64,000 bases of DNA from NCBI RefSeq assembly GCF_013487865.1, contig NZ_CP047409.1, forward strand, positions 372,001 to 436,000, in the 5' to 3' direction. The notes under the pieces were generated by a model, which was not told where the DNA came from, made no database searches, and worked only from the letters and a program-made list of their open reading frames with translations. Positions 11,817 through 40,900 of the stretch are shown one piece after another. A program made the position numbers and the translations under genes. This DNA comes from Lactobacillus johnsonii. GTDB lineage: Bacteria > Bacillota > Bacilli > Lactobacillales > Lactobacillaceae. The stretch's first letter is position 1. Every line of letters starts with the position of its first letter.

Positions 11817-12752
11817 ATGCGTAAAATATTTTTACTAAGAGGAGCACCTGGATCTGGAAAATCTTCCTTTATTGCTCGTCACCACTTGCAGCCTTACGCT
11901 ATTTCTCGTGATGAAATTAGGCTGCTATTAGCTGATTTGACGGTTTATTATGAGGAAAGTACAGATCACCTGCATCAAGTTATTCCACGCCATGTTACTG
12001 TACGTACAGAGCAAATGGTTGATAATTTGGTACAGCATAAGATGGCCTATGGAGAAACTATCATTGTCGATGGGACTCATATCACGCCAGATAAAATTGA
12101 ACATTTTCGTCCATGGGTTGAAAAGTATCGCTATGAGTTATTTGTAGTCGATTTAATGCAAAATAACACTCTAGAAAGCTTACTACAGCGTAATCAGGTT
12201 AGAATGCACTATGACTGGGTAAAACCTGACGTAATTAAAATGATGTATGAGCAATATAAAGCTCATCCGGAAGTTCCATCTTGGGCTTATTCAATTTTAC
12301 CGAATGGAATGGAACGGGCCTTAAGTCAAAAAGAAAAGAATTTAGATCATTATTCACATGTGATTTGTGTACCAGATAAGGTAAGACCAGAAGACTTTCC
12401 ACATGTGCATATTTCTAACTTTTACTTTTCTTTTAATGATGAATTTACTAAAAAATACGGAACATATAGGAACGTTATAACTTTAGGTAAAACTAGAGAA
12501 GAAGTAATCGAACAATTTAGGCTTCCATATTTTGTATTTAAATTCCACCATAAGCACTTTTTAATTTCTGCATATCCAATTCGAAATGAAATGTTAGATC
12601 CTATTCGAAAAGTAAAGGGAGTTTGGTCCTATTCAACTGGACTATATAATATTGCTGATTTTGTAAAAGAATTTCCAGAGAACGAACACCAGCATGTTCA
12701 TCAATTTAATTTAAGTAAGATTGATCCCACACGTTTATTACATATTTGGTAG
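11817..12752 (+). CDS. Polynucleotide-kinase-like P-loop protein
   Basis: 311 aa. The N-terminal half is a P-loop kinase of the polynucleotide/zeta-toxin-like group: Walker A GAPGSGKSS at residues 9-17, SRDEIRLLL (about 30-38), VDGTHITPDKIEHF (about 84-97), and an RNQVR lid segment near 125, the layout of T4 Pnkp-type 5'-kinase domains. The C-terminal 120 residues (from about DKVRPEDFPHVHISNFYF) have no family I recognise. The expected activity is ATP-dependent phosphorylation of a nucleic acid end or small molecule, with RNA repair as one possibility, but no ligase is adjacent. Monocistronic, start with AGGAG ribosome site, followed by a strong terminator. Confidence 0.75.
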   Translation: MRKIFLLRGAPGSGKSSFIARHHLQPYAISRDEIRLLLADLTVYYEESTDHLHQVIPRHVTVRTEQMVDNLVQHKMAYGETIIVDGTHITPDKIEHFRPWVEKYRYELFVVDLMQNNTLESLLQRNQVRMHYDWVKPDVIKMMYEQYKAHPEVPSWAYSILPNGMERALSQKEKNLDHYSHVICVPDKVRPEDFPHVHISNFYFSFNDEFTKKYGTYRNVITLGKTREEVIEQFRLPYFVFKFHHKHFLISAYPIRNEMLDPIRKVKGVWSYSTGLYNIADFVKEFPENEHQHVHQFNLSKIDPTRLLHIW

Positions 12753-12753
12753 T

Positions 12754-12787
12754 AAAAAATGAGAAGGTAAAACCTTCTCATTTTTTT
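12754..12787. terminator. Strong terminator
   Basis: Stem AAAAATGAGAAGG (12755-12767) with CCTTCTCATTTTT, 5-nt loop, T7 tail. Confidence 0.85.
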
Positions 12788-12901
12788 GTTAATTTAAATA
12801 GACTTTAATGGAAAAATAGCGATAATGTTCTTTTTAAGATACGGATAAGATTGAAAAAATAAAAGTCTCTTTTGCAAATCCTGTTGATGGATAATTTTAA
12901 G

Positions 12902-12917
12902 AAGGAATTAAGCAGCT
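12902..12917 (+). other. Left arm of a terminator hairpin split by the IS insertion
   Basis: AAGGAATTAAGCAGCT here is complementary (two G-U pairs) to the sequence read on the minus strand at 16601-16586, which is followed on that strand by TTTTTTC. Together with the AAAAAG loop they make a complete 16-bp terminator that was cut by insertion of the IS in its loop and separated by a later inversion. Confidence 0.8.
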
Positions 12918-12923
12918 AAAAAG

Positions 12924-14387
12924 TGATATGAACCCAAAAATTAGGACATATTATTAAACTGTTTGATTTAAAACCATATTTCGATATTGAATCGGAGTAT
13001 GGTTTTTTATTGAGCTCTTAATTCTAAAATTATTATAGTAATAAATATACTCTTTGATTGCATCTTCTAGTTCATCTAAATTCTTAAAATTTTTTTCAAA
13101 GCCATACCACATTTCTCGCTTTAAGATACCAAAAAATCCTTCCATTAATCCATCATCTAATGAATTACCTTTTCTAGACATTGATTGCTCAATACCATGA
13201 TCTGTAAGCTATTTTTGAAAGGTAGAATGTTGATATTGCCATCCTTGATCAGTGTGAAAAATAAGACCATTTAGAGAAGGATGAGCTTTATAAGCTAGGT
13301 CAAGCATGGTCATTACTTGTTCTAAAACTGGACGGCGACTTAATGTATAAGAAATTATCTCATGGGTACACCCATCCATAATTGGTGATAAATATAATTT
13401 TTCGCCGTTTAAATGAAACTCAGTTATATCTGAATACCACTTTCTATCTGGTAAAATGGCTAAAAAATTGCGACAGATCAAATTAGGTTTGATTTCACCT
13501 ACAGTTCCTCGATAACTTGAATATCTTTTTCTACGTCTAATGGCAATACCAAATAAATGCATCTTTTTCATCAGACGCTTTACTTTCTTATGATTGATTT
13601 TAATTCCTTCAATGTGCAATTGAGCTGTAATTCTTCTATAGCCGTAGCGATGTTTATGTTCCTCAAATATTTCTTTGATACGTTTCATGATCTGATGATT
13701 TTTTGAATCTTTATCATTTTGTTTTAGAACATAGTAATAATTACTTTTAGATAAGTGAGGTAAATCAGGATTAGAATTGATTACATTTAATATGAAACTG
13801 ACGGTTACATGAAGTTCTTGCCTTAGTTCAGTAACCACCTGAGCTATTTCTGGTGCTTTTGGTTTTTTCTTTTGGAAACTAAGGCGCTCAATTTTTTTAC
13901 AAATTCGTTTTCGACAGTAAGCTTGAGATTCTCTTGTTTTAAGTCTTTTACTTGTTTTTGTAGTTCTTTGATTTGTTGGTCTTTGCTTTTCATGATGTGG
14001 TCTGCCTTTCTTATGATTAATGACATTATACCCATCCTCTTTATATTTGCGAAGCCAATTATAGATCATACCTGAGCTTGGCAATCCTAAGTCTAATGAA
14101 ACTTAATTCGCTGGTTCATCGTTAATCAATATTCTTTTAATGGCAGTTTTCTTAAATTCTACCGAATAAGAAGAATATGATTTATTCAAAATTTCTAAGC
14201 CGTGAAGGTCTATTAGACGGATTAAATAATATAAATTGTCAGGTCTTACTCCATATTCTCTACCTAGTTGAGATAGTGACTTATGATAATGCTTCCAATT
14301 ATTGTAGATGTCAATTTTGTCTTGCTTAGATAATTTAGACATAATAAAAACCTCGAAATTCTTGTCCGAATTTCGGGGTTCATATCA
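12924..14387 (-). mobile_element. IS3-family insertion sequence, copy 1 (1,464 bp, defective)
   Basis: Ends are TGATATGAACCC...GGTTCATATCA with imperfect 25-bp terminal inverted repeats. It is the reverse complement of 16605-18068; the only base difference I noticed is in the right terminal repeat. Flanking bases are AAG on the left and ATA on the right, which do not match each other. AAG pairs instead with the inner flank of copy 2 (CTT) and ATA with the outer flank of copy 2 (TAT), the signature of an inversion between the copies. The transposase is broken in three places. Confidence 0.92.
12954..14342 (-). pseudogene. IS3-family (IS150-like) OrfAB transposase, three disabling lesions
   Basis: OrfA begins MSKLSKQDKIDIYNNW at 14342 and has two helix-turn-helix units. 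It is stopped by an in-frame TAA at 14103-14105, after which VSLDLGLPSSGMIYNWLRKY continues in the same frame. A one-base shift near 13990-14002 then moves the leucine-zipper part (KELQKQVKDLKQENLKL) to another frame. The normal programmed -1 heptamer A-AAA-AAC before OrfB is still present. OrfB has the DDE aspartates in WYSDITEF and FHTDQGWQYQ, but an in-frame TAG (13209-13211) separates them from the glutamate in DGLMEGFFG. No active enzyme can be expected. Confidence 0.9.
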
Positions 14388-14816
14388 ATATATTTCTTAT
14401 ACGCATATCCTTTTATATTTAATGTTATATTTTTCAAGTCTATACCCTATATACTACATTATAATCAAAAGCACTTAAGTAGAAATATATAAAAAATGAA
14501 ATAATATAATTCGTTATTTTTAAGAATTGATCCAATTTTGCTAATTTATAATTTTATTCTTCTTGCCTAAGTAGATAACCATTCTTTTCACGATTATATT
14601 ACTATAGTTACATCACTATAATTAGTAACTTAATTCACAATATAATAAATAAAGGCTGGCTATAGATAAACAATAGCTTATTATAAAGGTTTTTAGCTCT
14701 TATATTTGATCCTTTTTATTTGTAGTTTGTGAAACATGAGACTAGTATACACATGAGCAGATTAATAAATAACATATTGATTTTGTTTATTGTATATATT
14801 TAAAGGAGAGAGAAAA
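14388..14816. other. Upstream region of the GadC-like gene; probably the displaced native upstream region of secY2
   Basis: About 430 AT-rich bases without a gene. It carries the plus-strand promoter and AAAGGAGAG ribosome site (14802-14810) of the antiporter gene. Read on the minus strand toward IS copy 1 there is a plausible promoter, -35 TTGATT (14468-14463), 18-nt spacer, -10 TATAGA (14444-14439). If the 14388-16604 segment is flipped back, this end would abut the sequence before secY2 at 18069, so it probably once supplied the accessory Sec promoter. Confidence 0.55.
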
Positions 14817-16472
14817 ATGGAGAATTCTCATAAATCAGGATCTGCCAAAAAGCAAGCCTTTATCTCCATATGGACTCTAACTCTAATGAACGTGGCAATT
14901 ATCGCTGGTTTAGGTAATGACGTTCAAGAAGCCTTTTATGGTTTATCGTCAGTTACCTATTTTGCCATCGGTGCTATTTGCTTCTTCATTCCTACAGCTT
15001 TAGTAGCTGCAGAGCTAGCCTCTGGCTGGAGCAACCGTGGCGGTATTTTCCGCTGGGTTGGCGAAGGTTTAGGAAAAGGATGGGCATTAACTTGTCTGTT
15101 AATTTTATGGTTTCAGGTAATGATTAACTTCGGGATGGGGATGCCGAGTTCCGCTGCAACTATTTTGTTCTACACGCCAATGTATAACAAAGCAGTTGCC
15201 TTTGCTCAAAATCCTACCCACGTTGTTTTAATCATGACCGGATGGATTATTTTATATTGGATCATGGCTATCATTGCTAATAGAGGTGTTAAAACTTTTA
15301 CCACTATTACAAAATATGGTGTCTTAATTGGAACACTTATACCATTAGCAGTAATGATTATCCTAACTATCGTTTTGTTATGTCAGGGACATACACCTGC
15401 TATTTCCATGGTACCAAAACAATTAATTCCAAAATGGAACGGGATGAGTACTTTAGCCCTCGCAGCTGGTGTATTCTTCTCTTATACTGGAATCGATGAA
15501 AATGCTGCTTTCATTAAACGATTACGGCACCCTGAAAAAGACTTTGTATCTTCAATTTTCATTACTTTGATCTTAGTGTTCTTAATCTTCGTAGTAGGTA
15601 CTGTAATCATCGCAATGATCGTTCCAGAAAAACAAATTAATGTTTTATATTCATTAGTTACCGTATTTAAAGTTCTTGGTGAAACCTTTGCCTTTCCTTG
15701 GTTGTATCTAGTTCTAATGTGGGTCGGACTTTTCAATTTAGTTGCTTCTACTGTGACTGAACTAGCAGCTCCATCAGTTATGCTTGCCCAAGCTGGTAGT
15801 AGTGTTTTTTTACCAAAATGGTTACAAAAGAAAAACAAGCATGGAATGCCTGCTCGACTAGTTTATGTCCAAATGGCTGGAATGACTATTATTGCATATT
15901 TATTCAAATTAATTCCAAACGTAGAAGGATTCGTAATTTTATTAACACAGTGTGTCACTGTTCTATATCTTTTCTACTACATTCTAATGTTTGTCGCATT
16001 CTTACGTTACCAACAACCTAACCGTCCTCGTTCATTTAAAGTACCTGGTGGTAAAGTAGGAGCTTGGATTATTGCCAGTGTTGGTCTTATTTCATCAGTT
16101 TTCGGTATAGTTCTTGCCTTTTATCCACCAGCACAAGTTAAAGCTGAAGTTGGCTCCCCTGTCACTTATGTCGTTGTTATCGCAGTTTTAGTTGCTGTTG
16201 TATTACTTACTTGTTTAGGACTTTATCTTCTTTCTAAGAAGCACCCAAATTGGGTAAATCCAAAAAACGAATTTGCTCCATTTACTTGGGAAATTGAAGG
16301 ATTGAAGAAGCCTGAAAAAGTTACATCAAACATTCCTACTGTATTGATGTCTAAAGGACAGAATCCAATGAGGATGCCTATTAAGCGCCCATATAAACCT
16401 GATCAACAAGTAGCTAAATCAGTAGTTGATGCAGACGAACGGAATGAGTCAGTTGAAGAGAATCAAAGCTAA
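14817..16472 (+). CDS. GadC-like amino acid antiporter (APC superfamily)
   Basis: 551 aa from the ATG at 14817 (AAAGGAGAG 7 bases upstream); a start at 14790 would translate the ribosome site. About twelve transmembrane helices occupy residues 12-470. The helix-1 motif, VAAELASGWSNRGGIFRWV near residues 62-80 and SYTGIDENAAFIKRLRHPEKDF near 222 follow the glutamate:GABA antiporter group. The C-terminal tail of about 80 residues (FTWEIEGLKKPEKV...) corresponds to the acid-regulated plug of E. coli GadC. The substrate pair could be glutamate/GABA or another amino acid and amine; no decarboxylase gene is adjacent. It lies between inverted IS copies and its present orientation is derived: it was formerly divergent from secY2. 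Confidence 0.82.
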   Translation: MENSHKSGSAKKQAFISIWTLTLMNVAIIAGLGNDVQEAFYGLSSVTYFAIGAICFFIPTALVAAELASGWSNRGGIFRWVGEGLGKGWALTCLLILWFQVMINFGMGMPSSAATILFYTPMYNKAVAFAQNPTHVVLIMTGWIILYWIMAIIANRGVKTFTTITKYGVLIGTLIPLAVMIILTIVLLCQGHTPAISMVPKQLIPKWNGMSTLALAAGVFFSYTGIDENAAFIKRLRHPEKDFVSSIFITLILVFLIFVVGTVIIAMIVPEKQINVLYSLVTVFKVLGETFAFPWLYLVLMWVGLFNLVASTVTELAAPSVMLAQAGSSVFLPKWLQKKNKHGMPARLVYVQMAGMTIIAYLFKLIPNVEGFVILLTQCVTVLYLFYYILMFVAFLRYQQPNRPRSFKVPGGKVGAWIIASVGLISSVFGIVLAFYPPAQVKAEVGSPVTYVVVIAVLVAVVLLTCLGLYLLSKKHPNWVNPKNEFAPFTWEIEGLKKPEKVTSNIPTVLMSKGQNPMRMPIKRPYKPDQQVAKSVVDADERNESVEENQS

Positions 16473-16500
16473 TTTATAGTAGACACAAAATATATTTCTA

Positions 16501-16545
16501 TCCTTTTGATGAATATTTCTTATATTTCATCAAAAGGATTTTTTT
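16501..16545 (+). terminator. Terminator of the GadC-like gene
   Basis: A 13-bp stem TCCTTTTGATGAA (16501-16513) with TTCATCAAAAGGA (16526-16538), followed by T7. Confidence 0.88.
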
Positions 16546-16585
16546 GTTTAAAAACCTTATTTAACTTTAAATAATGAAATGAAAA

Positions 16586-16601
16586 AAGGAATCAAACAGC
16601 T
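16586..16601 (-). other. Right arm of the split terminator, displaced by inversion
   Basis: Read on the minus strand this is AGCTGTTTGATTCCTT followed by TTTT, complementary to 12902-12917. Bases 16602-16604 (CTT) are the inverted copy of the AAG target duplication that precedes IS copy 1. Confidence 0.8.
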
Positions 16602-16604
16602 CTT

Positions 16605-18068
16605 TGATATGAACCCCGAAATTCGGACAAGAATTTCGAGGTTTTTATTATGTCTAAATTATCTAAGCAAGACAAAATTGACATCTACAATAATTGGAAG
16701 CATTATCATAAGTCACTATCTCAACTAGGTAGAGAATATGGAGTAAGACCTGACAATTTATATTATTTAATCCGTCTAATAGACCTTCACGGCTTAGAAA
16801 TTTTGAATAAATCATATTCTTCTTATTCGGTAGAATTTAAGAAAACTGCCATTAAAAGAATATTGATTAACGATGAACCAGCGAATTAAGTTTCATTAGA
16901 CTTAGGATTGCCAAGCTCAGGTATGATCTATAATTGGCTTCGCAAATATAAAGAGGATGGGTATAATGTCATTAATCATAAGAAAGGCAGACCACATCAT
17001 GAAAAGCAAAGACCAACAAATCAAAGAACTACAAAAACAAGTAAAAGACTTAAAACAAGAGAATCTCAAGCTTACTGTCGAAAACGAATTTGTAAAAAAA
17101 TTGAGCGCCTTAGTTTCCAAAAGAAAAAACCAAAAGCACCAGAAATAGCTCAGGTGGTTACTGAACTAAGGCAAGAACTTCATGTAACCGTCAGTTTCAT
17201 ATTAAATGTAATCAATTCTAATCCTGATTTACCTCACTTATCTAAAAGTAATTATTACTATGTTCTAAAACAAAATGATAAAGATTCAAAAAATCATCAG
17301 ATCATGAAACGTATCAAAGAAATATTTGAGGAACATAAACATCGCTACGGCTATAGAAGAATTACAGCTCAATTGCACATTGAAGGAATTAAAATCAATC
17401 ATAAGAAAGTAAAGCGTCTGATGAAAAAGATGCATTTATTTGGTATTGCCATTAGACGTAGAAAAAGATATTCAAGTTATCGAGGAACTGTAGGTGAAAT
17501 CAAACCTAATTTGATCTGTCGCAATTTTTTAGCCATTTTACCAGATAGAAAGTGGTATTCAGATATAACTGAGTTTCATTTAAACGGCGAAAAATTATAT
17601 TTATCACCAATTATGGATGGGTGTACCCATGAGATAATTTCTTATACATTAAGTCGCCGTCCAGTTTTAGAACAAGTAATGACCATGCTTGACCTAGCTT
17701 ATAAAGCTCATCCTTCTCTAAATGGTCTTATTTTTCACACTGATCAAGGATGGCAATATCAACATTCTACCTTTCAAAAATAGCTTACAGATCATGGTAT
17801 TGAGCAATCAATGTCTAGAAAAGGTAATTCATTAGATGATGGATTAATGGAAGGATTTTTTGGTATCTTAAAGCGAGAAATGTGGTATGGCTTTGAAAAA
17901 AATTTTAAGAATTTAGATGAACTAGAAGATGCAATCAAAGAGTATATTTATTACTATAATAATTTTAGAATTAAGAGCTCAATAAAAAACCATACTCCGA
18001 TTCAATATCGAAATATGGTTTTAAATCAAACAGTTTAATAATATGTCCTAATTTTTTGGTTCATATCA
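16605..18068 (+). mobile_element. IS3-family insertion sequence, copy 2 (1,464 bp, defective)
   Basis: Inverted copy of 12924-14387 with the same length and the same transposase lesions. Its right end lies 51 bases before the secY2 start codon, and the 3 bases after it (TAT) match the complement of those after copy 1. It therefore separates the accessory Sec operon from whatever promoter lay upstream; any transcription now must come from within the IS, from the 51-base remnant or from an IS/flank hybrid. Confidence 0.92.
16650..18038 (+). pseudogene. IS3-family transposase of copy 2, same three lesions as copy 1
   Basis: Identical in predicted peptides to copy 1: TAA at 16887-16889 in OrfA, frame change near 16990-17002, and TAG at 17781-17783 between the second catalytic aspartate and the glutamate. 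Sharing all lesions means the copies descend from an already broken element moved in trans, or were homogenised by recombination. Confidence 0.9.
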
Positions 18069-18119
18069 TATCTTTGAAAGAGTAGTATTGCTCAATTCAC
18101 TTATCGAGGAGAAGTTCAT

Positions 18120-19307
18120 TTGGAAAAGAAAAATCTTTTAAATGTAATAAAGAAAGTAAGCTTTAGTCTATTCATAGTAATAATTTATGTAATGGGATTA
18201 TACATTCCTCTTCCTTTTGCAGAAGTGACTAAACAGTATATGGAAGCTGTAAAAAATACTCCTATTTCAATTTTAGGAGCATTTAGTGGGGCCAATTTTA
18301 CACGGATATCTATTTTTTCAATCGGTCTGAATCCATTAATGTTTTCGATGTTAATTATTCAGCTTCTAAGTTTTACTCATTCCTTTGGTTTTGATGCCTT
18401 ATCACCAAAACAAGTACAGTACTTGATGCAATTTTTAACTATGATTATCACTATCATTCAAGCAGCACTATTAGTCTTTGCTTTTACTAATCGGCGAGAT
18501 GGACTAGAAGATTTTGAAATGATTCTGATATTAAGTGCTGGGTCTTGTTTAGTAGTTTGGCTTTGTTACCGCAATATGAAATATGGGGTTGGAGCAAGTG
18601 CACCAGTTATTTTAACAAGTATTCTTAATGGCGCTATTCCTAATATAATTAGTAATGTAAAGCTTCTTTTAACCATGAAATATGCATGGGTTTGGTTAGC
18701 AGCTTTAGCTATTTTTATTTTGTTACTAATAAAATTTTGGCTCGCATTTACTAAAGCCTACTATCCTTTAAAAGTAGTTAATCTTAGTCTCCCTGCTTCT
18801 AGCAATTTGATGACAGTGCCGTTAGGATTAAACATGGCTGCCATGATGATGTATATGGTAGGAATGGCTATTTTGACCCTTCCTTTAATGGTAGGAAGAT
18901 ACTTTAGTTCTACATCTTTGATCAATAATTGGGTATTTCAAGCTTCCTTTTCTGCAGTAATGGGAATATTAATTTTTTATTTCTTCACTTTTGTAAATTT
19001 CGATCCTAAAGAACAAGCCAAGAGTTTTCGAAATAATCATTACTACATTCCCAATATTGCTCCAGGACGTCCTACACAACAATATTTAAACCGTCTAATA
19101 TGGATTATTGCCTTTCCAGGAGCCATTTTAAACGCATTCCAGCTTGTTTTTGGTTTATATGGGGGTAATTTTTTAGGTAATTATGCTAGCTTTGCTATTA
19201 TTCCAATGAATGTTGTTATGATTACAATGTTTATGGGAGGAATTAAAGATCAAATTGATACTATTTTGTTCCCATATCGTTATGATCGTTTATTAAAGGA
19301 TAACTAA
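18120..19307 (+). CDS. secY2: Accessory Sec translocase channel SecY2
   Basis: 395 aa with about ten transmembrane helices, shorter than housekeeping SecY (about 430) as usual for SecY2. The early LYIPLPF segment (residues 26-32) replaces the plug-adjacent motif of SecY, and MFSMLIIQLLSF (about 76) and the NIAPGRPTQQYLNRL cytoplasmic loop (about 318-332) follow the family. It forms the membrane pore for the glycosylated serine-rich adhesin. The start is TTG at 18120 with GAGGAG (18106-18111) 8 bases upstream. First gene of an eight-gene co-directional block with gaps of 12 bases or less, including overlaps. IS copy 2 ends 51 bases upstream, so its native promoter has been displaced. Confidence 0.93.
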   Translation: MEKKNLLNVIKKVSFSLFIVIIYVMGLYIPLPFAEVTKQYMEAVKNTPISILGAFSGANFTRISIFSIGLNPLMFSMLIIQLLSFTHSFGFDALSPKQVQYLMQFLTMIITIIQAALLVFAFTNRRDGLEDFEMILILSAGSCLVVWLCYRNMKYGVGASAPVILTSILNGAIPNIISNVKLLLTMKYAWVWLAALAIFILLLIKFWLAFTKAYYPLKVVNLSLPASSNLMTVPLGLNMAAMMMYMVGMAILTLPLMVGRYFSSTSLINNWVFQASFSAVMGILIFYFFTFVNFDPKEQAKSFRNNHYYIPNIAPGRPTQQYLNRLIWIIAFPGAILNAFQLVFGLYGGNFLGNYASFAIIPMNVVMITMFMGGIKDQIDTILFPYRYDRLLKDN

Positions 19308-28951: not shown

Positions 28952-31900
28952 ATGAAAGACAGAAAATTTAAAAAGAATCAAAAAAGTAAGAGTAAGTATG
29001 TCGATCCTAATAGTTTAAAGGAAACGGAAGATAGTTCTAAGCCCTATCTTAAAGAACTAGCAGCGTTAGCAGCAATTTTAGGAACTGGAGCTACAGGGGC
29101 AGCAATTTTACCCAATGATCGTGTATATGCTGCACAGACTTCTGTAGATGCTAAATCACAAATAGTTGGATCAGTGTCTGAAAGTACACAGACTGACTTA
29201 TCAAAACAAGGATATAGTAAATCTGATGAAAATGGAGTCAGGGCTAGTAACTCAGCAGCTAAAAGCATGTCTAGTTCTAGTTCAAAGAGTTTGCTAATCT
29301 CTAAAAGTACTTCCACATCTTTAAGTCAATCAATAAGTCACTCACAATCGACTTCACAGTCTACATCTTTAAGTAAGTCACAAAGTTTATCAGAATCTTT
29401 AAGTTATTCTAAAAGTAAACTTACTTCTTTAAGTGTAGCTGAAAAAAGAACTTCTACATCTCATAGAGATAAGAGCAGCAATTCTTCAAAAACTAAAGAC
29501 AAATCTAGTGTTTCAAATTCAAATAATAATGCCAATGCAAGTAATAGCACTTATGTAGGAAATTTCTATTCTAGCGAAAATTCATCTATTATTGAAAAAC
29601 AAAGCACCGATCAAAGTAATCTTAATGATACAACTAGTTTAAGCTTGAGCAATACACAACTTATAGATAGAAGTCTTAAAATTCCTGTTGCTCTTCAAAC
29701 TTCCATAAATAAGATTAGTACTGATAACAAAGAGCAACTTAATAAAAAGCAACAATTAAATGAATTAAGCTTGAATGGTGTTTTTACTAACTTGGTTCAA
29801 ACAAACACTGGTGTTGATGTAAGCAATGCGCAAGAATTTTATAATCAAGTTGTTAAGGGTACTGCTAGTGTCGTTAATATAACGAATGACATTGATTTGG
29901 GAGCAAAATATGGTAGTAGTACTGGTGTTATGAACACTCCCCACAGCGTAACTATTAATGGTAATGGCCATATCATTAACTTTGGTAACTTCTATATTAA
30001 ACCAAATTGGACTTCTCCTAGTGATGAGCTAAATATTACATTTAATGACACTACACTTTATACAGCTAATCAATATGGGGCAGTATATATGAATAATACT
30101 CCCAGATTCTTTGATAATTCTAAAATCAGATTAGTTTATAATAATGTACAAGCAGTTGGTGGAACGGCAGTCTTTGCAGATAGAGAAGCTAATAATGGTC
30201 TTTTTAATTCTTATTCATATCAACCACTAAAAACGTTTGAAATAAAAGGTAACACGAGAATTAATGGAGCTAGTTCCTATACTTATAATGGAACAATATA
30301 TATTCCAGCATATAGCGATATTCATGGTACAGCTTTAATTTCACCAGCATTTAACGTAGTTATTGATAACGGGGCAAACGTTGTTTTAGATGCTGGTGGA
30401 AGTGCCGAATATAATATTCAATTGCAAGGTAAGAGGGGTACGCATACTATTTCGATTGGTGACAATGCACATGTTGAAATGAAGGGTGCGGCTAAGTCCA
30501 ACATTATTATGCCAAGTTATGACGGGGGTGATAATGTCATCAACATTGGTAACAATGCGGAAGTAAATTTGACTGTGCCAGAAGGTGCTACTGATAATAT
30601 TGATTTAAATTATGAAAATGCATCAGTTAACAATACAATCAATATCAATCCTGGTGCTAGAGTTCAATTAAATAGTGATTTATTCAATATTGGTGCACTA
30701 GGCTCTGCAACGGTAAATATCAACAATCCAGATTATGTGATTCTGAGCAATGGTGGTGGTAGAGCCTATGGTTCTCAATATAAGGGTTACAGTGTTACCT
30801 TCACAGTTAATGCAAGTGAAACAAATATTCAAACTGGTGATGGAGATATAACAGAAAAATCACCATTTATAGCAACCAATACAGCAACCATTAATGTAAA
30901 TAATACACGAAACGATAATTATCCAAGTGGTACGGTTCAAAGCACCAACACTACTTTGATGCCTAATCAACTTGATCCAACTGGAACTACCGATACAGCT
31001 CAAGTTGATAGTAATATTATTTTGCCGCGTTTTAAAAAAACTGCATATATAGGATATACAGCATTTAGCGGATCAACTTCCACAAGTGCAAGTCTAAGCA
31101 ACTCAGTATCGATGAGCGAAAGCTTAAGCAACTCAGTAAGCATGAGTGAGAGCTTGTCTAACTCAGTAAGTATGAGTGAAAGCTTGAGTAACTCAGTAAG
31201 TATGAGTGAAAGCTTAAGCAACTCAGTATCAATGAGTGAAAGCTTAAGCAACTCAGTAAGCATGAGTGAGAGCTTGAGTAACTCAGTAAGCATGAGTGAG
31301 AGCTTGAGTAACTCAGTAAGTATGAGCGAGAGCTTGAGTAACTCAGTGTCAATGAGTGACAGCTTAAGCAACTCAGTAAGTATGAGTGAAAGCTTAAGTA
31401 ACTCAGTAAGTATGAGTGAGAGTTTGAGTAACTCAGTGTCAATGAGTGAAAGCTTAAGCAACTCAGTAAGCATGAGTGAAAGTTTAAGTAACTCAGTGTC
31501 AATGAGCGAGAGCTTGAGTAACTCAGTAAGCATGAGTGAGAGCTTGAGTAACTCAGTAAGCATGAGCGAGAGCTTGAGCAACTCAGTATCGATGAGTGAG
31601 AGTTTGAGTAACTCAGTAAGCATGAGCGAGAGCTTATCTAACTCAGTATCGATGAGTGAAAGCTTAAGTAACTCAGTAAGTATGAGTGAAAGCTTGAGTA
31701 ACTCGGTATCAATGAGTGAAAGCTTAAGCAACTCAGTAAGCATGAGCGAGAGCTTAAGCAACTCAGTAAGCATGAGCGAAAGCTTAAGCAACTCAGTATC
31801 AATGAGTGAAAGTCTAAGTAACTCAGTAAGCATGAGTGACAGCCTAAGCAACTCAGTATCAATGAGTGAAAGTCTAAGTAACTCAGTAAGCATGAGCGAA

Positions 31901-34900
31901 AGTTTGAGTAACTCAGTAAGCATGAGCGAGAGCTTATCTAACTCGGTATCAATGAGTGAAAGCTTAAGTAACTCAGTAAGTATGAGTGAGAGCTTAAGTA
32001 ACTCAGTAAGCATGAGCGAGAGCTTGAGCAACTCAGTAAGCATGAGTGAAAGCTTAAGTAACTCAGTAAGCATGAGTGACAGCTTATCAAACTCGGTATC
32101 AATGAGTGAGAGCTTGAGCAACTCAGTATCGATGAGTGAGAGTTTGAGTAACTCAGTGTCAATGAGTGACAGCCTAAGCAACTCAGTAAGTATGAGTGAG
32201 AGCTTGAGCAACTCAGTATCGATGAGTGAGAGCTTGAGTAACTCGGTATCAATGAGTGAGAGCTTGAGTAACTCAGTAAGTATGAGTGAGAGCTTGAGTA
32301 ACTCAGTAAGCATGAGCGAGAGCTTAAGCAACTCGGTATCAATGAGTGACAGCTTAAGCAACTCAGTAAGCATGAGCGAGAGCTTGAGTAACTCAGTAAG
32401 TATGAGTGAGAGCCTAAGCAACTCAGTAAGTATGAGCGAGAGCTTGAGTAACTCAGTAAGCATGAGTGAGAGTTTGAGTAACTCAGTGTCAATGAGTGAA
32501 AGCTTAAGCAACTCAGTAAGCATGAGTGAAAGTTTAAGTAACTCAGTGTCAATGAGTGAAAGTCTAAGTAACTCAGTAAGCATGAGTGAAAGTTTAAGTA
32601 ACTCAGTAAGCATGAGTGAGAGCTTGAGTAACTCGGTATCAATGAGCGAGAGCTTGAGTAACTCAGTAAGTATGAGTGAGAGCTTGAGTAACTCAGTAAG
32701 CATGAGTGAGAGTTTGAGTAACTCAGTATCAATGAGTGAAAGCTTAAGTAACTCAGTAAGCATGAGTGAAAGTCTAAGTAACTCAGTAAGCATGAGCGAG
32801 AGCTTGAGTAACTCAGTAAGCATGAGTGAAAGCCTAAGTAACTCAGTAAGTATGAGCGAGAGCTTGAGTAACTCAGTAAGCATGAGTGAAAGTTTAAGTA
32901 ACTCAGTAAGCATGAGTGAGAGCTTGAGTAACTCGGTATCAATGAGCGAGAGCTTGAGTAACTCAGTAAGTATGAGTGAGAGCTTGAGTAACTCAGTAAG
33001 CATGAGTGAGAGTTTGAGTAACTCAGTATCAATGAGTGAAAGCTTAAGTAACTCAGTAAGCATGAGTGACAGCTTGTCTAACTCGGTATCAATGAGTGAG
33101 AGCTTGAGTAACTCAGTAAGTATGAGCGAAAGCCTAAGTAACTCAGTAAGTATGAGCGACAGCTTATCTAACTCGGTATCAATGAGTGAAAGCTTGAGTA
33201 ACTCAGTAAGCATGAGTGAGAGCTTAAGCAACTCGGTAAGTATGAGTGAAAGTTTAAGTAACTCAGTAAGTATGAGCGAGAGCCTAAGCAACTCGGTATC
33301 AATGAGTGACAGCTTAAGTAACTCAGTAAGTATGAGTGAGAGCTTGAGTAACTCAGTAAGCATGAGCGAGAGCTTAAGCAACTCAGTAAGCATGAGCGAG
33401 AGCTTAAGCAACTCAGTGTCAATGAGTGAAAGTTTAAGTAACTCAGTAAGCATGAGCGAGAGCTTAAGTAACTCGGTATCAATGAGTGAAAGCTTAAGTA
33501 ACTCAGTAAGTATGAGTGAGAGCTTGAGTAACTCAGTAAGTATGAGTGAAAGTTTAAGTAACTCAGTAAGTATGAGCGAAAGCTTAAGCAACTCAGTATC
33601 AATGAGTGAAAGTCTAAGTAACTCAGTAAGTATGAGCGAGAGCTTGAGTAACTCAGTGTCAATGAGTGACAGCTTAAGCAACTCAGTAAGCATGAGTGAG
33701 AGCTTGAGTAACTCAGTAAGCATGAGCGAGAGCTTGAGCAACTCAGTAAGCATGAGCGAGAGCTTAAGCAACTCAGTAAGCATGAGTGAAAGTTTAAGTA
33801 ACTCAGTAAGTATGAGCGAGAGCTTGAGTAACTCAGTAAGCATGAGTGAGAGCTTAAGTAACTCAGTAAGCATGAGCGAAAGCTTAAGCAACTCAGTATC
33901 AATGAGTGAAAGTCTAAGTAACTCAGTAAGCATGAGCGAGAGCTTGAGTAACTCGGTATCAATGAGTGACAGCCTAAGCAACTCAGTAAGTATGAGTGAG
34001 AGCTTGAGTAACTCAGTAAGCATGAGTGAGAGCTTGAGTAACTCGGTATCAATGAGTGAAAGCTTAAGTAACTCAGTAAGTATGAGCGAAAGCTTGAGTA
34101 ACTCAGTAAGCATGAGTGAGAGCTTGAGTAACTCAGTAAGTATGAGCGAAAGCTTAAGCAACTCAGTATCAATGAGTGAAAGTCTAAGTAACTCAGTAAG
34201 CATGAGCGAGAGCTTGAGTAACTCAGTATCAATGAGTGAAAGCTTAAGTAACTCAGTAAGCATGAGTGACAGCTTGTCTAACTCGGTATCAATGAGTGAG
34301 AGCTTGAGTAACTCAGTAAGTATGAGCGAAAGCCTAAGTAACTCAGTAAGTATGAGCGACAGCTTATCTAACTCGGTATCAATGAGTGAAAGCTTGAGTA
34401 ACTCAGTAAGCATGAGTGAGAGCTTAAGTAACTCAGTAAGTATGAGTGAAAGTTTAAGTAACTCAGTATCAATGAGTGAGAGCTTGAGTAACTCAGTAAG
34501 TATGAGCGAAAGCCTAAGTAACTCAGTAAGTATGAGCGACAGCTTATCTAACTCGGTATCAATGAGTGAAAGCTTGAGTAACTCAGTAAGCATGAGTGAG
34601 AGCTTAAGTAACTCAGTAAGTATGAGTGAAAGTTTAAGTAACTCAGTAAGTATGAGCGAGAGCCTAAGCAACTCGGTATCAATGAGTGAAAGCTTAAGTA
34701 ACTCAGTAAGTATGAGTGAGAGCTTGAGTAACTCAGTAAGCATGAGCGAGAGCTTAAGCAACTCAGTAAGCATGAGCGAGAGCTTAAGCAACTCAGTAAG
34801 CATGAGTGAAAGTTTAAGTAACTCAGTAAGCATGAGCGAGAGCTTAAGTAACTCGGTATCAATGAGTGAAAGCTTAAGCAACTCAGTAAGCATGAGCGAG

Positions 34901-37900
34901 AGCTTGAGCAACTCAGTATCGATGAGTGAGAGTTTGAGTAACTCAGTGTCAATGAGTGACAGCCTAAGCAACTCAGTAAGTATGAGTGAGAGCTTGAGCA
35001 ACTCAGTATCGATGAGTGAGAGCTTGAGTAACTCGGTATCAATGAGTGAGAGCTTGAGTAACTCAGTAAGCATGAGCGAGAGCTTAAGCAACTCGGTATC
35101 AATGAGTGACAGCTTAAGCAACTCAGTAAGCATGAGCGAGAGCTTGAGTAACTCAGTAAGTATGAGTGAGAGCCTAAGCAACTCAGTAAGTATGAGCGAG
35201 AGCTTGAGTAACTCAGTAAGCATGAGTGAGAGTTTGAGTAACTCAGTGTCAATGAGTGACAGCTTAAGCAACTCAGTAAGCATGAGTGAAAGTTTAAGTA
35301 ACTCAGTGTCAATGAGTGAGAGCCTAAGCAACTCAGTGTCAACGAGCGAAGGTTTAAGTAACTCAGTAAGCATGAGCGAGAGCTTAAGCAACTCAGTAAG
35401 CATGAGCGAGAGCTTGAGTAACTCAGTAAGCATGAGCGAGAGCTTGAGCAACTCAGTAAGTATGAGCGAGAGCTTGAGTAACTCAGTGTCAATGAGTGAC
35501 AGCTTAAGTAACTCAGTAAGCATGAGCGAAAGCTTAAGCAACTCAGTATCAATGAGTGAAAGTCTAAGTAACTCAGTAAGCATGAGCGAGAGCTTGAGTA
35601 ACTCAGTAAGCATGAGTGAAAGCCTAAGTAACTCAGTAAGTATGAGCGAGAGCTTGAGTAACTCAGTAAGCATGAGTGAAAGTTTAAGTAACTCAGTAAG
35701 CATGAGTGAGAGCTTGAGTAACTCGGTATCAATGAGCGAGAGCCTAAGCAACTCGGTATCAATGAGTGACAGCTTAAGTAACTCAGTAAGTATGAGTGAG
35801 AGCTTGAGTAACTCAGTAAGCATGAGCGAGAGCTTAAGCAACTCAGTAAGCATGAGTGAAAGTCTAAGTAACTCAGTAAGCATGAGCGAGAGCTTGAGTA
35901 ACTCAGTAAGCATGAGTGAAAGCCTAAGTAACTCAGTAAGTATGAGCGAGAGCTTGAGTAACTCAGTAAGCATGAGTGAAAGTTTAAGTAACTCAGTAAG
36001 CATGAGTGAGAGCTTGAGTAACTCGGTATCAATGAGCGAGAGCTTGAGTAACTCAGTAAGTATGAGTGACAGCTTAAGCAACTCAGTAAGCATGAGTGAG
36101 AGCTTGAGTAACTCAGTAAGCATGAGCGAGAGCTTGAGCAACTCAGTAAGCATGAGCGAGAGCTTAAGCAACTCAGTAAGCATGAGTGAAAGTTTAAGTA
36201 ACTCAGTAAGTATGAGCGAGAGCTTGAGTAACTCAGTAAGCATGAGTGAGAGCTTGAGTAACTCAGTAAGCATGAGTGAGAGCTTGAGTAACTCGGTATC
36301 AATGAGTGAAAGCTTAAGTAACTCAGTAAGTATGAGCGAAAGCTTGAGTAACTCAGTAAGCATGAGTGAGAGCTTGAGTAACTCAGTAAGTATGAGCGAA
36401 AGCTTAAGCAACTCAGTATCAATGAGTGAAAGTCTAAGTAACTCAGTAAGCATGAGCGAGAGCTTGAGTAACTCGGTATCAATGAGTGACAGCCTAAGCA
36501 ACTCAGTAAGCATGAGTGACAGCCTAAGCAACTCAGTAAGCATGAGCGAGAGCTTGAGTAACTCAGTAAGCATGAGCGAGAGCTTGAGCAACTCAGTAAG
36601 CATGAGTGAAAGCTTAAGTAACTCAGTAAGTATGAGCGAGAGCTTAAGCAACTCAGTAAGCATGAGTGAGAGCTTAAGTAACTCAGTAAGCATGAGTGAG
36701 AGCTTAAGTAACTCAGTAAGCATGAGTGACAGCTTGAGTAACTCAGTAAGCATGAGCGAGAGCTTGAGCAACTCAGTAAGTATGAGTGAGAGTTTGAGTA
36801 ACTCAGTAAGCATGAGTGACAGCCTAAGCAACTCAGTAAGTATGAGTGAGAGCTTGAGTAACTCAGTAAGTATGAGTGAGAGTTTGAGTAACTCAGTAAG
36901 CATGAGTGACAGCCTAAGCAACTCAGTATCAATGAGTGAAAGTCTAAGTAACTCAGTAAGTATGAGTGAAAGCTTAAGCAACTCAGTAAGCATGAGTGAG
37001 AGCTTAAGTAACTCAGTAAGTATGAGCGAGAGCTTAAGCAACTCAGTAAGCATGAGTGAGAGCTTAAGTAACTCAGTAAGCATGAGTGAGAGCTTAAGTA
37101 ACTCAGTAAGCATGAGTGAGAGCTTGAGTAACTCAGTATCAATGAGCGAAAGCTTGAGTAACTCAGTAAGCATGAGCGAGAGCTTAAGCAACTCAGTAAG
37201 CATGAGTGAGAGCTTGAGTAACTCAGTAAGCATGAGCGAGAGCTTGAGCAACTCAGTATCGATGAGTGAGAGTTTGAGTAACTCAGTAAGCATGAGTGAC
37301 AGCCTAAGCAACTCAGTAAGTATGAGTGAGAGCTTGAGTAACTCAGTAAGTATGAGTGAGAGCTTGAGTAACTCAGTAAGCATGAGTGAGAGCTTGAGTA
37401 ACTCGGTATCAATGAGTGAAAGCTTAAGTAACTCAGTAAGTATGAGCGAAAGCTTGAGTAACTCAGTAAGCATGAGTGAGAGCTTGAGTAACTCAGTAAG
37501 TATGAGTGAGAGCTTGAGTAACTCAGTAAGCATGAGCGAGAGCTTGAGCAACTCAGTAAGTATGAGTGAGAGTTTGAGTAACTCAGTAAGCATGAGTGAC
37601 AGCCTAAGCAACTCAGTAAGTATGAGTGAGAGCTTGAGTAACTCAGTAAGCATGAGTGAGAGTTTGAGTAACTCAGTAAGCATGAGTGACAGCCTAAGCA
37701 ACTCAGTATCAATGAGTGAAAGTCTAAGTAACTCAGTAAGTATGAGTGAAAGCTTAAGCAACTCAGTAAGCATGAGTGAGAGCTTGAGTAACTCAGTAAG
37801 TATGAGTGAGAGCTTAAGCAACTCAGTAAGCATGAGTGAGAGCTTAAGTAACTCAGTAAGCATGAGTGAGAGCTTAAGTAACTCAGTAAGCATGAGTGAG

Positions 37901-40900
37901 AGCTTGAGTAACTCAGTATCAATGAGCGAAAGCTTGAGTAACTCAGTAAGCATGAGCGAGAGCTTAAGCAACTCAGTAAGCATGAGTGAGAGCTTGAGTA
38001 ACTCAGTAAGCATGAGCGAGAGCTTGAGTAACTCAGTAAGCATGAGCGAGAGCTTGAGCAACTCAGTATCGATGAGTGAGAGTTTGAGTAACTCAGTAAG
38101 CATGAGTGACAGCCTAAGCAACTCAGTAAGTATGAGTGAGAGCTTGAGTAACTCAGTAAGTATGAGTGAGAGTTTGAGTAACTCAGTAAGCATGAGTGAC
38201 AGCCTAAGCAACTCAGTATCAATGAGTGAAAGTCTAAGTAACTCAGTAAGTATGAGTGAAAGCTTAAGCAACTCAGTAAGCATGAGTGAGAGCTTGAGTA
38301 ACTCAGTAAGTATGAGCGAGAGCTTAAGCAACTCAGTAAGCATGAGTGAGAGCTTAAGTAACTCAGTAAGCATGAGCGAGAGCTTGAGCAACTCAGTAAG
38401 CATGAGTGAGAGCTTGAGTAACTCAGTAAGTATGAGCGAGAGCTTAAGCAACTCAGTAAGCATGAGTGAGAGTTTGAGTAACTCAGTAAGCATGAGTGAG
38501 AGCTTGAGTAACTCAGTAAGCATGAGTGAGAGCTTAAGTAACTCAGTAAGCATGAGCGAGAGCTTGAGCAACTCAGTAAGCATGAGTGAGAGCTTGAGTA
38601 ACTCAGTAAGTATGAGCGAGAGCTTAAGCAACTCAGTAAGCATGAGTGAGAGTTTGAGTAACTCAGTAAGCATGAGTGAGAGCTTGAGTAACTCAGTAAG
38701 CATGAGTGAGAGCTTGAGTAACTCAGTAAGCATGAGTGACAGCTTGAGTAACTCAGTAAGCATGAGCGAGAGCTTGAGCAACTCAGTAAGCATGAGCGAG
38801 AGCTTAAGCAACTCAGTAAGCATGAGTGAAAGTTTAAGTAACTCAGTAAGTATGAGCGAGAGCTTAAGCAACTCAGTAAGCATGAGTGAGAGTTTAAGTA
38901 ACTCAGTAAGCATGAGCGAAAGCTTAAGCAACTCAGTATCAATGAGTGAAAGTCTAAGTAACTCAGTAAGCATGAGTGAGAGCTTGAGTAACTCAGTAAG
39001 CATGAGTGAGAGCTTGAGTAACTCGGTATCAATGAGTGAGAGCTTGAGTAACTCAGTAAGTATGAGTGAGAGCTTGAGTAACTCAGTAAGCATGAGTGAG
39101 AGCTTGAGTAACTCGGTATCAATGAGTGAAAGCTTAAGTAACTCAGTAAGTATGAGCGAAAGCTTGAGTAACTCAGTAAGCATGAGTGAGAGCTTGAGTA
39201 ACTCAGTAAGTATGAGTGAGAGCTTGAGTAACTCAGTAAGCATGAGCGAGAGCTTGAGCAACTCAGTATCGATGAGTGAGAGTTTGAGTAACTCAGTAAG
39301 CATGAGTGACAGCCTAAGCAACTCAGTAAGTATGAGTGAGAGCTTGAGTAACTCAGTAAGCATGAGTGAGAGTTTGAGTAACTCAGTAAGCATGAGTGAC
39401 AGCCTAAGCAACTCAGTATCAATGAGTGAAAGTCTAAGTAACTCAGTAAGTATGAGTGAAAGCTTAAGCAACTCAGTAAGCATGAGTGAGAGCTTGAGTA
39501 ACTCAGTAAGTATGAGTGAGAGCTTAAGCAACTCAGTAAGCATGAGTGAGAGCTTAAGTAACTCAGTAAGCATGAGTGAGAGCTTAAGTAACTCAGTAAG
39601 CATGAGTGAGAGCTTGAGTAACTCAGTATCAATGAGCGAAAGCTTGAGTAACTCAGTAAGCATGAGCGAAAGCTTGAGTAACTCAGTAAGCATGAGCGAG
39701 AGCTTAAGCAACTCAGTAAGCATGAGCGAGAGCTTGAGTAACTCAGTAAGCATGAGCGAGAGCTTGAGCAACTCAGTATCGATGAGTGAGAGTTTGAGTA
39801 ACTCAGTAAGCATGAGTGACAGCCTAAGCAACTCAGTAAGTATGAGTGAGAGCTTGAGTAACTCAGTAAGTATGAGTGAGAGCTTGAGTAACTCAGTAAG
39901 CATGAGTGACAGCCTAAGCAACTCAGTATCAATGAGTGAAAGTCTAAGTAACTCAGTAAGTATGAGTGAAAGCTTAAGCAACTCAGTAAGTATGAGCGAG
40001 AGCTTGAGTAACTCAGTAAGCATGAGTGAGAGCTTAAGTAACTCAGTAAGCATGAGCGAAAGCTTAAGCAACTCAGTATCAATGAGTGAAAGTCTAAGTA
40101 ACTCAGTAAGCATGAGCGAGAGCTTGAGTAACTCGGTATCAATGAGTGACAGCCTAAGCAACTCAGTAAGTATGAGTGAGAGCTTGAGTAACTCAGTAAG
40201 CATGAGTGAGAGCTTGAGTAACTCAGTAAGCATGAGTGAGAGCTTGAGTAACTCGGTATCAATGAGTGAAAGCTTAAGTAACTCAGTAAGTATGAGCGAA
40301 AGCTTGAGCAACTCAGTAAGCATGAGTGAGAGCTTAAGTAACTCAGTAAGCATGAGCGAAAGCTTAAGCAACTCAGTATCAATGAGTGAAAGTCTAAGTA
40401 ACTCAGTAAGCATGAGCGAGAGCTTGAGTAACTCGGTATCAATGAGTGACAGCCTAAGCAACTCAGTAAGTATGAGTGAGAGCTTGAGTAACTCGGTATC
40501 AATGAGTGAAAGCTTAAGTAACTCAGTAAGTATGAGCGAAAGCTTGAGCAACTCAGTAAGTATGAGCGAGAGCTTAAGCAACTCAGTAAGCATGAGTGAA
40601 AGTTTAAGTAACTCAGTAAGTATGAGCGAGAGCTTGAGTAACTCAGTAAGCATGAGTGAGAGCTTAAGTAACTCAGTAAGCATGAGTGAGAGCTTGAGTA
40701 ACTCGGTATCAATGAGTGAGAGCTTGAGTAACTCAGTAAGTATGAGTGACAGCCTAAGCAACTCAGTAAGTATGAGTGAGAGCTTGAGTAACTCAGTAAG
40801 CATGAGTGAGAGTTCGAGTAACTCAGTAAGCATGAGTGACAGCCTAAGCAACTCAGTATCAATGAGTGAAAGTCTAAGTAACTCAGTAAGTATGAGTGAA

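Follow-up and report, generated by a model that had tools for sequence, protein, structure and literature searches.

Probable inversion of a permease segment between two IS3-family copies in Lactobacillus johnsonii, and an apparent preference of the element for terminator-like hairpins

Inversions bounded by insertion sequences (IS) have been described in lactic acid bacteria. Between Lactobacillus johnsonii strains NCC 533 and DPC6026, an inversion of ~750 kb has 1,460-bp inverted repeats at its junctions, which include ISLjo2 of the ISL3 family (PMC3080392). The same paper cites, by its title, a study of a large inversion in L. lactis caused by recombination between two IS, and it places IS1223-family elements in L. 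johnsonii (PMC3080392). The present analysis concerns a window of 64,000 nucleotides (positions 372,001–436,000 of contig NZ_CP047409.1, a one-contig L. johnsonii genome of 1,995,616 bases listed as 99.99% complete), in which a segment carrying an amino-acid permease gene lies between two inverted copies of an IS3-family element. This locus resembled the NCC 533/DPC6026 case in its related host species, in the inverted IS copies at the ends and in the turned segment between them. It differed in that the segment was 2.2 kb long and held one permease gene, the element belonged to the IS3 family, and the uninterrupted state was visible in relatives. The inversion is a fresh example of an already known type of rearrangement, and it is the element's choice of target, rather than the inversion, that is worth following.

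Several described elements also choose palindromes. In the IS3 family, IS1397 and ISKpn1 insert in palindromes of the repetitive extragenic palindrome (REP) or palindromic unit (PU) type, and ISPsy8, flanked by 3-bp repeats, is described as occupying the symmetry axis of a predicted REP hairpin (PMC1525189). These elements and ours share the family and the choice of a palindrome, but their target is a repeated REP sequence of the host, whereas the sites described here were terminator-like hairpins of unrelated sequence. IS1272 is described as targeting inverted repeats that form stem-loops and as replacing the stem-loop without target duplication (PMC5678879). The kind of target is the same, but in our case the arms stayed and 3–4 bp were duplicated at most sites. 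For another IS3-family element, the available part of its description gives 3–4 bp repeats and mentions no hairpin target (PMC6211511). Among the open-literature titles and abstract beginnings listed, with most subscription journals outside that range, there was no report of an IS3-family element choosing the loops of intrinsic terminators.

A preliminary description of the window, made from its letters, had proposed that the permease segment was inverted between two near-identical IS copies. This observation was confirmed, with the inverted copies, the crossed repeats and the flipped segment all present (Table 1). The two copies differed at one of 1464 positions (IS position 1453), where the T of copy 2 was private to it among the nine full-length copies of the 1464-bp element in the genome. 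A repeat scan placed the inverted-repeat arms at 12924–14388 and 16604–18068, the one additional base being an extension past the IS. The 3-bp flanks of each copy disagreed (AAG/ATA for copy 1, CTT/TAT for copy 2), but both crossed pairs matched as reverse complements (AAG with CTT and ATA with TAT), exactly as had been claimed. The chance of two crossed 3-bp matches was ~1 in 4,000 for equal bases, and somewhat higher in AT-rich DNA. Over the nine genome copies, direct 3-bp repeats matched in five and were mismatched in four, and the window pair was among those four.

The crossed repeats were accompanied by a split hairpin. When the two arms were joined, they folded into a 16-bp stem with the loop AAAAAG (−21.4 kcal/mol), and none of 200 shuffled sequences was as stable. 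The earlier view of these arms as halves of one 16-bp terminator held for the fold; its weakness was the left arm, which lay in an ISL3-like remnant and whose sequence had seven exact occurrences in the genome. This made the identity of the arms weaker evidence than first thought, and the weight of evidence for the inversion rests instead on the loop letters, the 3-bp repeats and the relatives.

The permease search covered 75 genomes of the genus, the own genome included, and 16 of them had a match at E 1e-150 or better. Outside the own genome there were three close intact orthologues (G059, G069 and G071, the last apparently L. taiwanensis DSM 21401), with 97–98% identity. None of these three relatives had an IS at either site, and in each of them the permease gene was divergent from secY2, the first gene of the accessory Sec cluster. 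The hairpin was unbroken, in the same place and running into the 3′ end of the permease gene in all three, which was the arrangement that the preliminary description had foreseen for IS-free genomes. The empty site in the relatives read ...AAATATAT|CTTTGAAAG..., equal to the two half-sites of the window less one TAT on the secY2 side. The hairpin loop was AAAAAAG in G059 and GAAAAT in G069 and G071, and the joined window halves gave AAAAAG; the stem in G069 carried a pairing-preserving change from A-T to G-C. Both arrangements, the joins of the empty sites, the crossed repeats and the hairpin were seen directly in these sequences.

We propose, with a probability of roughly three in four, that two IS insertions followed by recombination between the copies turned the 2,217-bp segment. 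An IS3-family element would have entered the loop of the terminator hairpin beside the permease gene, with a 3-bp duplication of AAG, and a second copy in the opposite orientation would have entered the intergenic region between the permease gene and secY2, with a duplication of TAT. Reciprocal homologous recombination between the inverted 1464-bp copies would then have turned round the segment between them. The permease gene would in this way have come to share the direction of secY2 and would presumably have kept its own promoter and terminator. With the copies still almost identical, the segment could flip back, and a phase-variable switch is one conceivable reading.

Several observations weigh against this proposal. 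Recombination, one-step inversion and misassembly all leave the same letters, and the flip was seen in one assembly, no strain with the same flip being among the genomes compared. The earlier explanation by insertion and recombination was accordingly upheld in one part: the three relatives back the inversion, but the crossed repeats cannot single out recombination from the other two processes. The reconstructed loop was one A short of that in G059 and unlike that in the other two relatives. In L. johnsonii ATCC 33200 (L016) the same hairpin was occupied by an internally deleted IS that points the other way, and the flanks of this IS disagreed (the left loop read AAGAAAAT, the right flank AAG). 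The permease gene of this relative was without the 5′ part and was followed by DNA matching the window from 48366 onward, so that no accessory-Sec cluster stands there. This IS, together with the truncated permease gene, indicated repeated rearrangement of the locus. The left flank of the window also differed from that of the relatives, which have an adhesin gene where the window has the ISL3-like remnant, and one inversion cannot explain the whole locus.

An assembly artefact, in which both IS copies are real and the 2.2-kb segment was placed backwards across the 1464-bp repeats, would yield exactly the crossed repeats observed, and the repeats are long and one base apart at their outer ends; the genome is, however, a single contig with the high completeness given above, and although such an error can still occur in it, we consider this explanation unlikely. 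The same crossed repeats would be expected if the IS in the terminator loop had attacked the permease–secY2 spacer of the same chromosome and inverted the segment in one step of intramolecular transposition, which would also account for the near-identity of the copies. However, the IS3 family is described as moving mainly by copy-and-paste via donor-primed replication (PMC11708052), and the two in-frame stops shared by both copies mean that the transposase would be needed from another copy; one-step transposition seems less likely still. Missing target repeats are described as often arising from recombination between identical IS copies or from adjacent deletions (PMC11708052). An ancestral state like that of the window, with the inversion on the side of the relatives, can hardly be entertained, as the relatives are IS-free with clean joins and an intact hairpin, the crossed repeats are in the window, and nothing in favour of this order was found. 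Recombination between two inserted copies is the account that we retain.

The transposase of the element matched NF033516 (IS3) with 207 bits, above the cut-off of 160, and the IS ended in imperfect terminal inverted repeats of ~25 nt (TG...CA). In both window copies the long frame was broken at codons 80 and 378, and neither stop was present in three of the nine genome copies (L006, L007, and L008). The long open reading frame (ORF) of 467–479 aa was intact in all five related copies inspected (L006:1501-2964, L109, L113, L117, and L129). In the same five copies a leucine-zipper stretch, usual for OrfA, was observed in an overlapping open frame of 73–74 aa, and the layout of long frame plus zipper frame was retained in G032 at 67% DNA identity. 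The nearest named element is probably IS1223 of L. johnsonii (IS150 group). The IS3 transposase, the TG...CA inverted ends of ~25 bp and the 3-bp target repeats are common to this group and our element. A difference may lie in the reading frames: IS3-family elements join orfA and orfB by frameshifting, and the five related copies keep one long frame, with the zipper in the overlapping one.

Once the flanks of the nine own copies had been joined, most of the restored empty sites proved to be hairpins. To count as a hit, a site needed at least 9 pairs enclosing the junction, a 60-nt fold of −9 kcal/mol or below, and no fewer than 5 T among 7 positions on the right; this rule asks for a junction within a terminator-like hairpin and does not require the apical loop. 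The first set began with 67 related places in the genus (at most five per genome), five of them in the own genome. Sequences were fetched for 38 of the 62 others and 35 were used, with L120, L124, and L128 omitted as both ends were not available; the 24 unfetched places were partial matches, contig edges, or four matches in G001 starting at base 220 or 286. With the nine own copies, the window pair being de-crossed, the set comprised 44 sites. The junction lay in a terminator-like hairpin at 34 of these (own copies 6/9, group A 18/24, group B 10/11), compared with 163 of 2602 shifted controls (>45 nt away at the same loci), 200 of 4000 random window positions and 525 of 5462 noncoding window positions. 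At −14 kcal/mol the hits were 29/44 for the sites, 43/2602 for the shifted controls and 250/5462 for the noncoding positions. Target repeats of 3–4 bp were found at 36 of the 44 sites, again with the window pair de-crossed. The own copies that failed the rule were L005, the half-site L007 and the site of window copy 2. Own copies seated in hairpins included L003, L004, L006, L008, and L009, and the related loci were numbered L109–L146 and L180–L206. L003 and L006 share one hairpin in two copies of one ISL3-like element and are maybe non-independent; L135 was counted as a hit, and its flanks look coding by eye.

Two other rules had been tried and set aside. A gapless stem scorer gave 19 of 44 sites at a score of at least 12 against 0.7% of 3000 window positions, and it missed longer loops and bulges. 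A first fold rule, in which the T run had to lie outside the stem, gave 8/44 against 227/5462 noncoding and 83/3000 random positions. Both were replaced because the stems of these AT-rich hairpins include the paired A and T runs, and since the final criterion was set after these rules had been seen, the 34/44 result is post hoc. The unchanged rule was then applied to a second set, drawn from a protein search across the order, whose flanks had been viewed before scoring. This set comprised 30 loci, nine of which were dropped (end pattern absent or ambiguous, or contig edge), and 15 of the remaining 21 were hits, compared with 90 of 1283 shifted controls. When four of the dropped loci were placed by hand, none was a hit, which brought the count to 15/25; three of the four were one element in G005. 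This more distant element, present in three copies, departs from the hairpin pattern, so that the preference, if real, would have been gained or lost within the group. L180 and L204 share flanks, as do L193 and L195, and each pair is perhaps one insertion; the site statistics assume independence, which holds only in part. A search of seven genomes for further copies returned no new full-length copy, and a DNA search of 301 family-level genomes (at most two scored per genome) gave matches at E 1e-60 in eight, all of the same genus.

On balance, we favour the reading that a Lactobacillales group of IS3-family elements recognizes the structure, not the sequence, of intrinsic terminators, inserting at the loop, splitting the arms and sparing genes. 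The pattern could instead reflect survival bias only, with IS persisting in the harmless spaces between convergent genes. Terminators occupy such spaces, and IS3 elements have been described as over-represented between convergent genes (PMC9208149). The gain in centring also points this way, being modest: 24 of the 34 site hits, compared with 84 of the 163 control hits, had the junction no more than 4 nt from the hairpin centre, and the median distance from junction to centre was 2.75 nt in site hits vs. 4.0 in control hits. This small difference lends stronger support to insertion inside the hairpin than to insertion exactly at the loop. However, survival in harmless spaces would have to produce a hairpin frequency well above that of the noncoding and shifted controls given above, and centred hits were likewise concentrated at the sites (24/44, against 84/2602 shifted and 275/5462 noncoding positions). 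Survival bias as the whole explanation is, in our judgment, improbable.

Table 1. Coordinates of the features at the inverted locus (positions in the window).
Feature	Position	Strand	Remarks
AAA-domain gene, left neighbour	11817–12752	+	Pfam AAA_33; in G069 left of the adhesin gene
Terminator-like hairpin downstream of the AAA-domain gene	12754–12786	+	15-bp stem, T tail
ISL3-like end remnant, bearing the left hairpin arm	12865–12923		Reads GTCTCTTTTGCAAATCC...; intact copies begin GGCTCTTTTGCAAATCC...; same sequence dispersed in the genome
Left arm of the split terminator hairpin	12902–12917		Sequence reading and fold
AAG, half of the first 3-bp target repeat	12921–12923		Partner CTT 16602–16604
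IS3-family copy 1	12924–14387	−	1464 bp; long transposase frame broken by two stops
Inverted segment	14388–16604		2217 bp; reversed in 3/3 relatives that are IS-free here
ATA, half of the second 3-bp target repeat	14388–14390		Partner TAT 18069–18071
Conserved block, directly upstream of secY2 in relatives	14388–14507	−	Presumed promoter/leader; TATAAT 14463–14458
GadC-like amino-acid permease gene, 551 aa	14817–16472	+	AA_permease_2; ancestrally on the minus strand
Terminator-like hairpin of the permease gene itself, T tail	16500–16546	+	Read from the sequence, not in the hairpin-scan list; homologous hairpin in G059; moved with the inversion
Right arm of the split terminator hairpin	16586–16601		Native to the 3′ flank of the permease gene
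CTT, half of the first 3-bp target repeat	16602–16604		Partner AAG 12921–12923
IS3-family copy 2	16605–18068	+	1464 bp; the same two stops as copy 1
TAT, half of the second 3-bp target repeat	18069–18071		Partner ATA 14388–14390
secY2, first accessory-Sec gene	18120–19307	+	NCBIfam acc_sec_Y2 above cut-off; 51 bp between secY2 and the IS

The locus had been presented as a full molecular record of the inversion. This did not stand, because the left flank records a further, separate event, in which an ISL3-like remnant has come to replace an adhesin gene. In all three IS-free relatives the hairpin comes after the gene of an LPxTG surface protein, a giant adhesin of 3438 aa in the G059 stretch and 3677 aa in G069, with only its end present in G071 (contig edge). 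The last 1161 residues of the G059 adhesin contained Muc_B2, MBG, and LPXTG anchor domains. In G069 a stretch matching window 11863–12765 lay ~11 kb from the permease gene, with the 3677-aa adhesin ORF between. At window 12787–12901 the adhesin gene of the relatives was missing, and the remnant occupied its place. The first 800 residues of the G059 adhesin frame had no match in the own genome, an empty result that is uninformative for want of a positive control.

Six left-arm copies outside the window, and one with a mismatch, all stood after GGCTCTTTTGCAAATCC..., which by its terminal sequence is a probable ISL3-family end. The own terminator of the remnant element has the same stem as the left hairpin arm. 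With the left arm inside the remnant and the adhesin gene there in the relatives, the left flank is not ancestral. The loop AAAAAG beside copy 1 was like the G059 loop and unlike the ISL3-like loop AAGAAAT. The simplest account of the left flank would be that the arm stood both at the ISL3-like end and at the adhesin terminator, and that a deletion between these two copies took place before the IS3-family element entered. As far as the inversion goes, the two arms are one hairpin, though the left flank is non-ancestral. At L007 (G000:C1:762271-763734), half of an ISL3-like terminator was observed on one side only, with no target repeat; the ISL3-like body was apparently lost in a deletion adjacent to the IS.

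The permease had been named GadC in the preliminary description, and this name could not be kept. The best NCBIfam model, the glutamine/γ-aminobutyrate (GABA) antiporter GadC, scored 386.8 bits against a cut-off of 650, and two further GadC-type models were also below their cut-offs (310.6 vs. 640 and 170.6 vs. 673.5 bits). The glutamate decarboxylase domain PF00282 was absent from the own genome and present in eight of 14 control genomes. Judged by its sequence, the permease is GadC-like and is labelled no further.

The flip also changed the surroundings of the accessory Sec cluster, whose order was secY2, asp1, asp2, and asp3 (Pfam Asp1, Asp2, and Asp3), followed by a secA2-like gene recognized by eye. 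The block that stands directly upstream of secY2 in the relatives was invariant in 111 of 120 columns across four lineages, the middle of the spacer not being so conserved, and in the window it now faces away from secY2, into copy 1. Because the flipped segment took this block with it, the accessory-Sec operon is probably without its promoter; the secY2-asp genes have probably lost it or rely on another. A promoter scan gave 26 matches vs. 29.2 in shuffles, no excess, and we therefore claim no IS-borne promoter for secY2. The GC skew was positive in all eight 8-kb blocks of the window; this points to the plus strand as the leading one, in which case the flip made the permease gene, formerly head-on, co-directional. 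Downstream of the accessory-Sec genes, an open frame of 5,210 aa was observed at window 28952–44584, with a 4,397-aa frame on the opposite strand over most of it. From its position and size, the larger frame may encode the exported, repetitive adhesin of the accessory-Sec operon.

This inversion provides a clean, small, IS-driven gene flip of which the uninterrupted state is known, and the parting of the accessory-Sec operon from its upstream block is a testable outcome of it. If the element does recognize hairpin structure, terminators would serve as genome-wide landing pads, and the inverted and direct IS copies seated there would drive inversions like this one and deletions such as that at L007. 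A preference that holds up in transposition would explain the landing sites of a class of mobile DNA in lactic acid bacteria, and the way in which a DDE transposase reads a hairpin-forming site would become directly testable.

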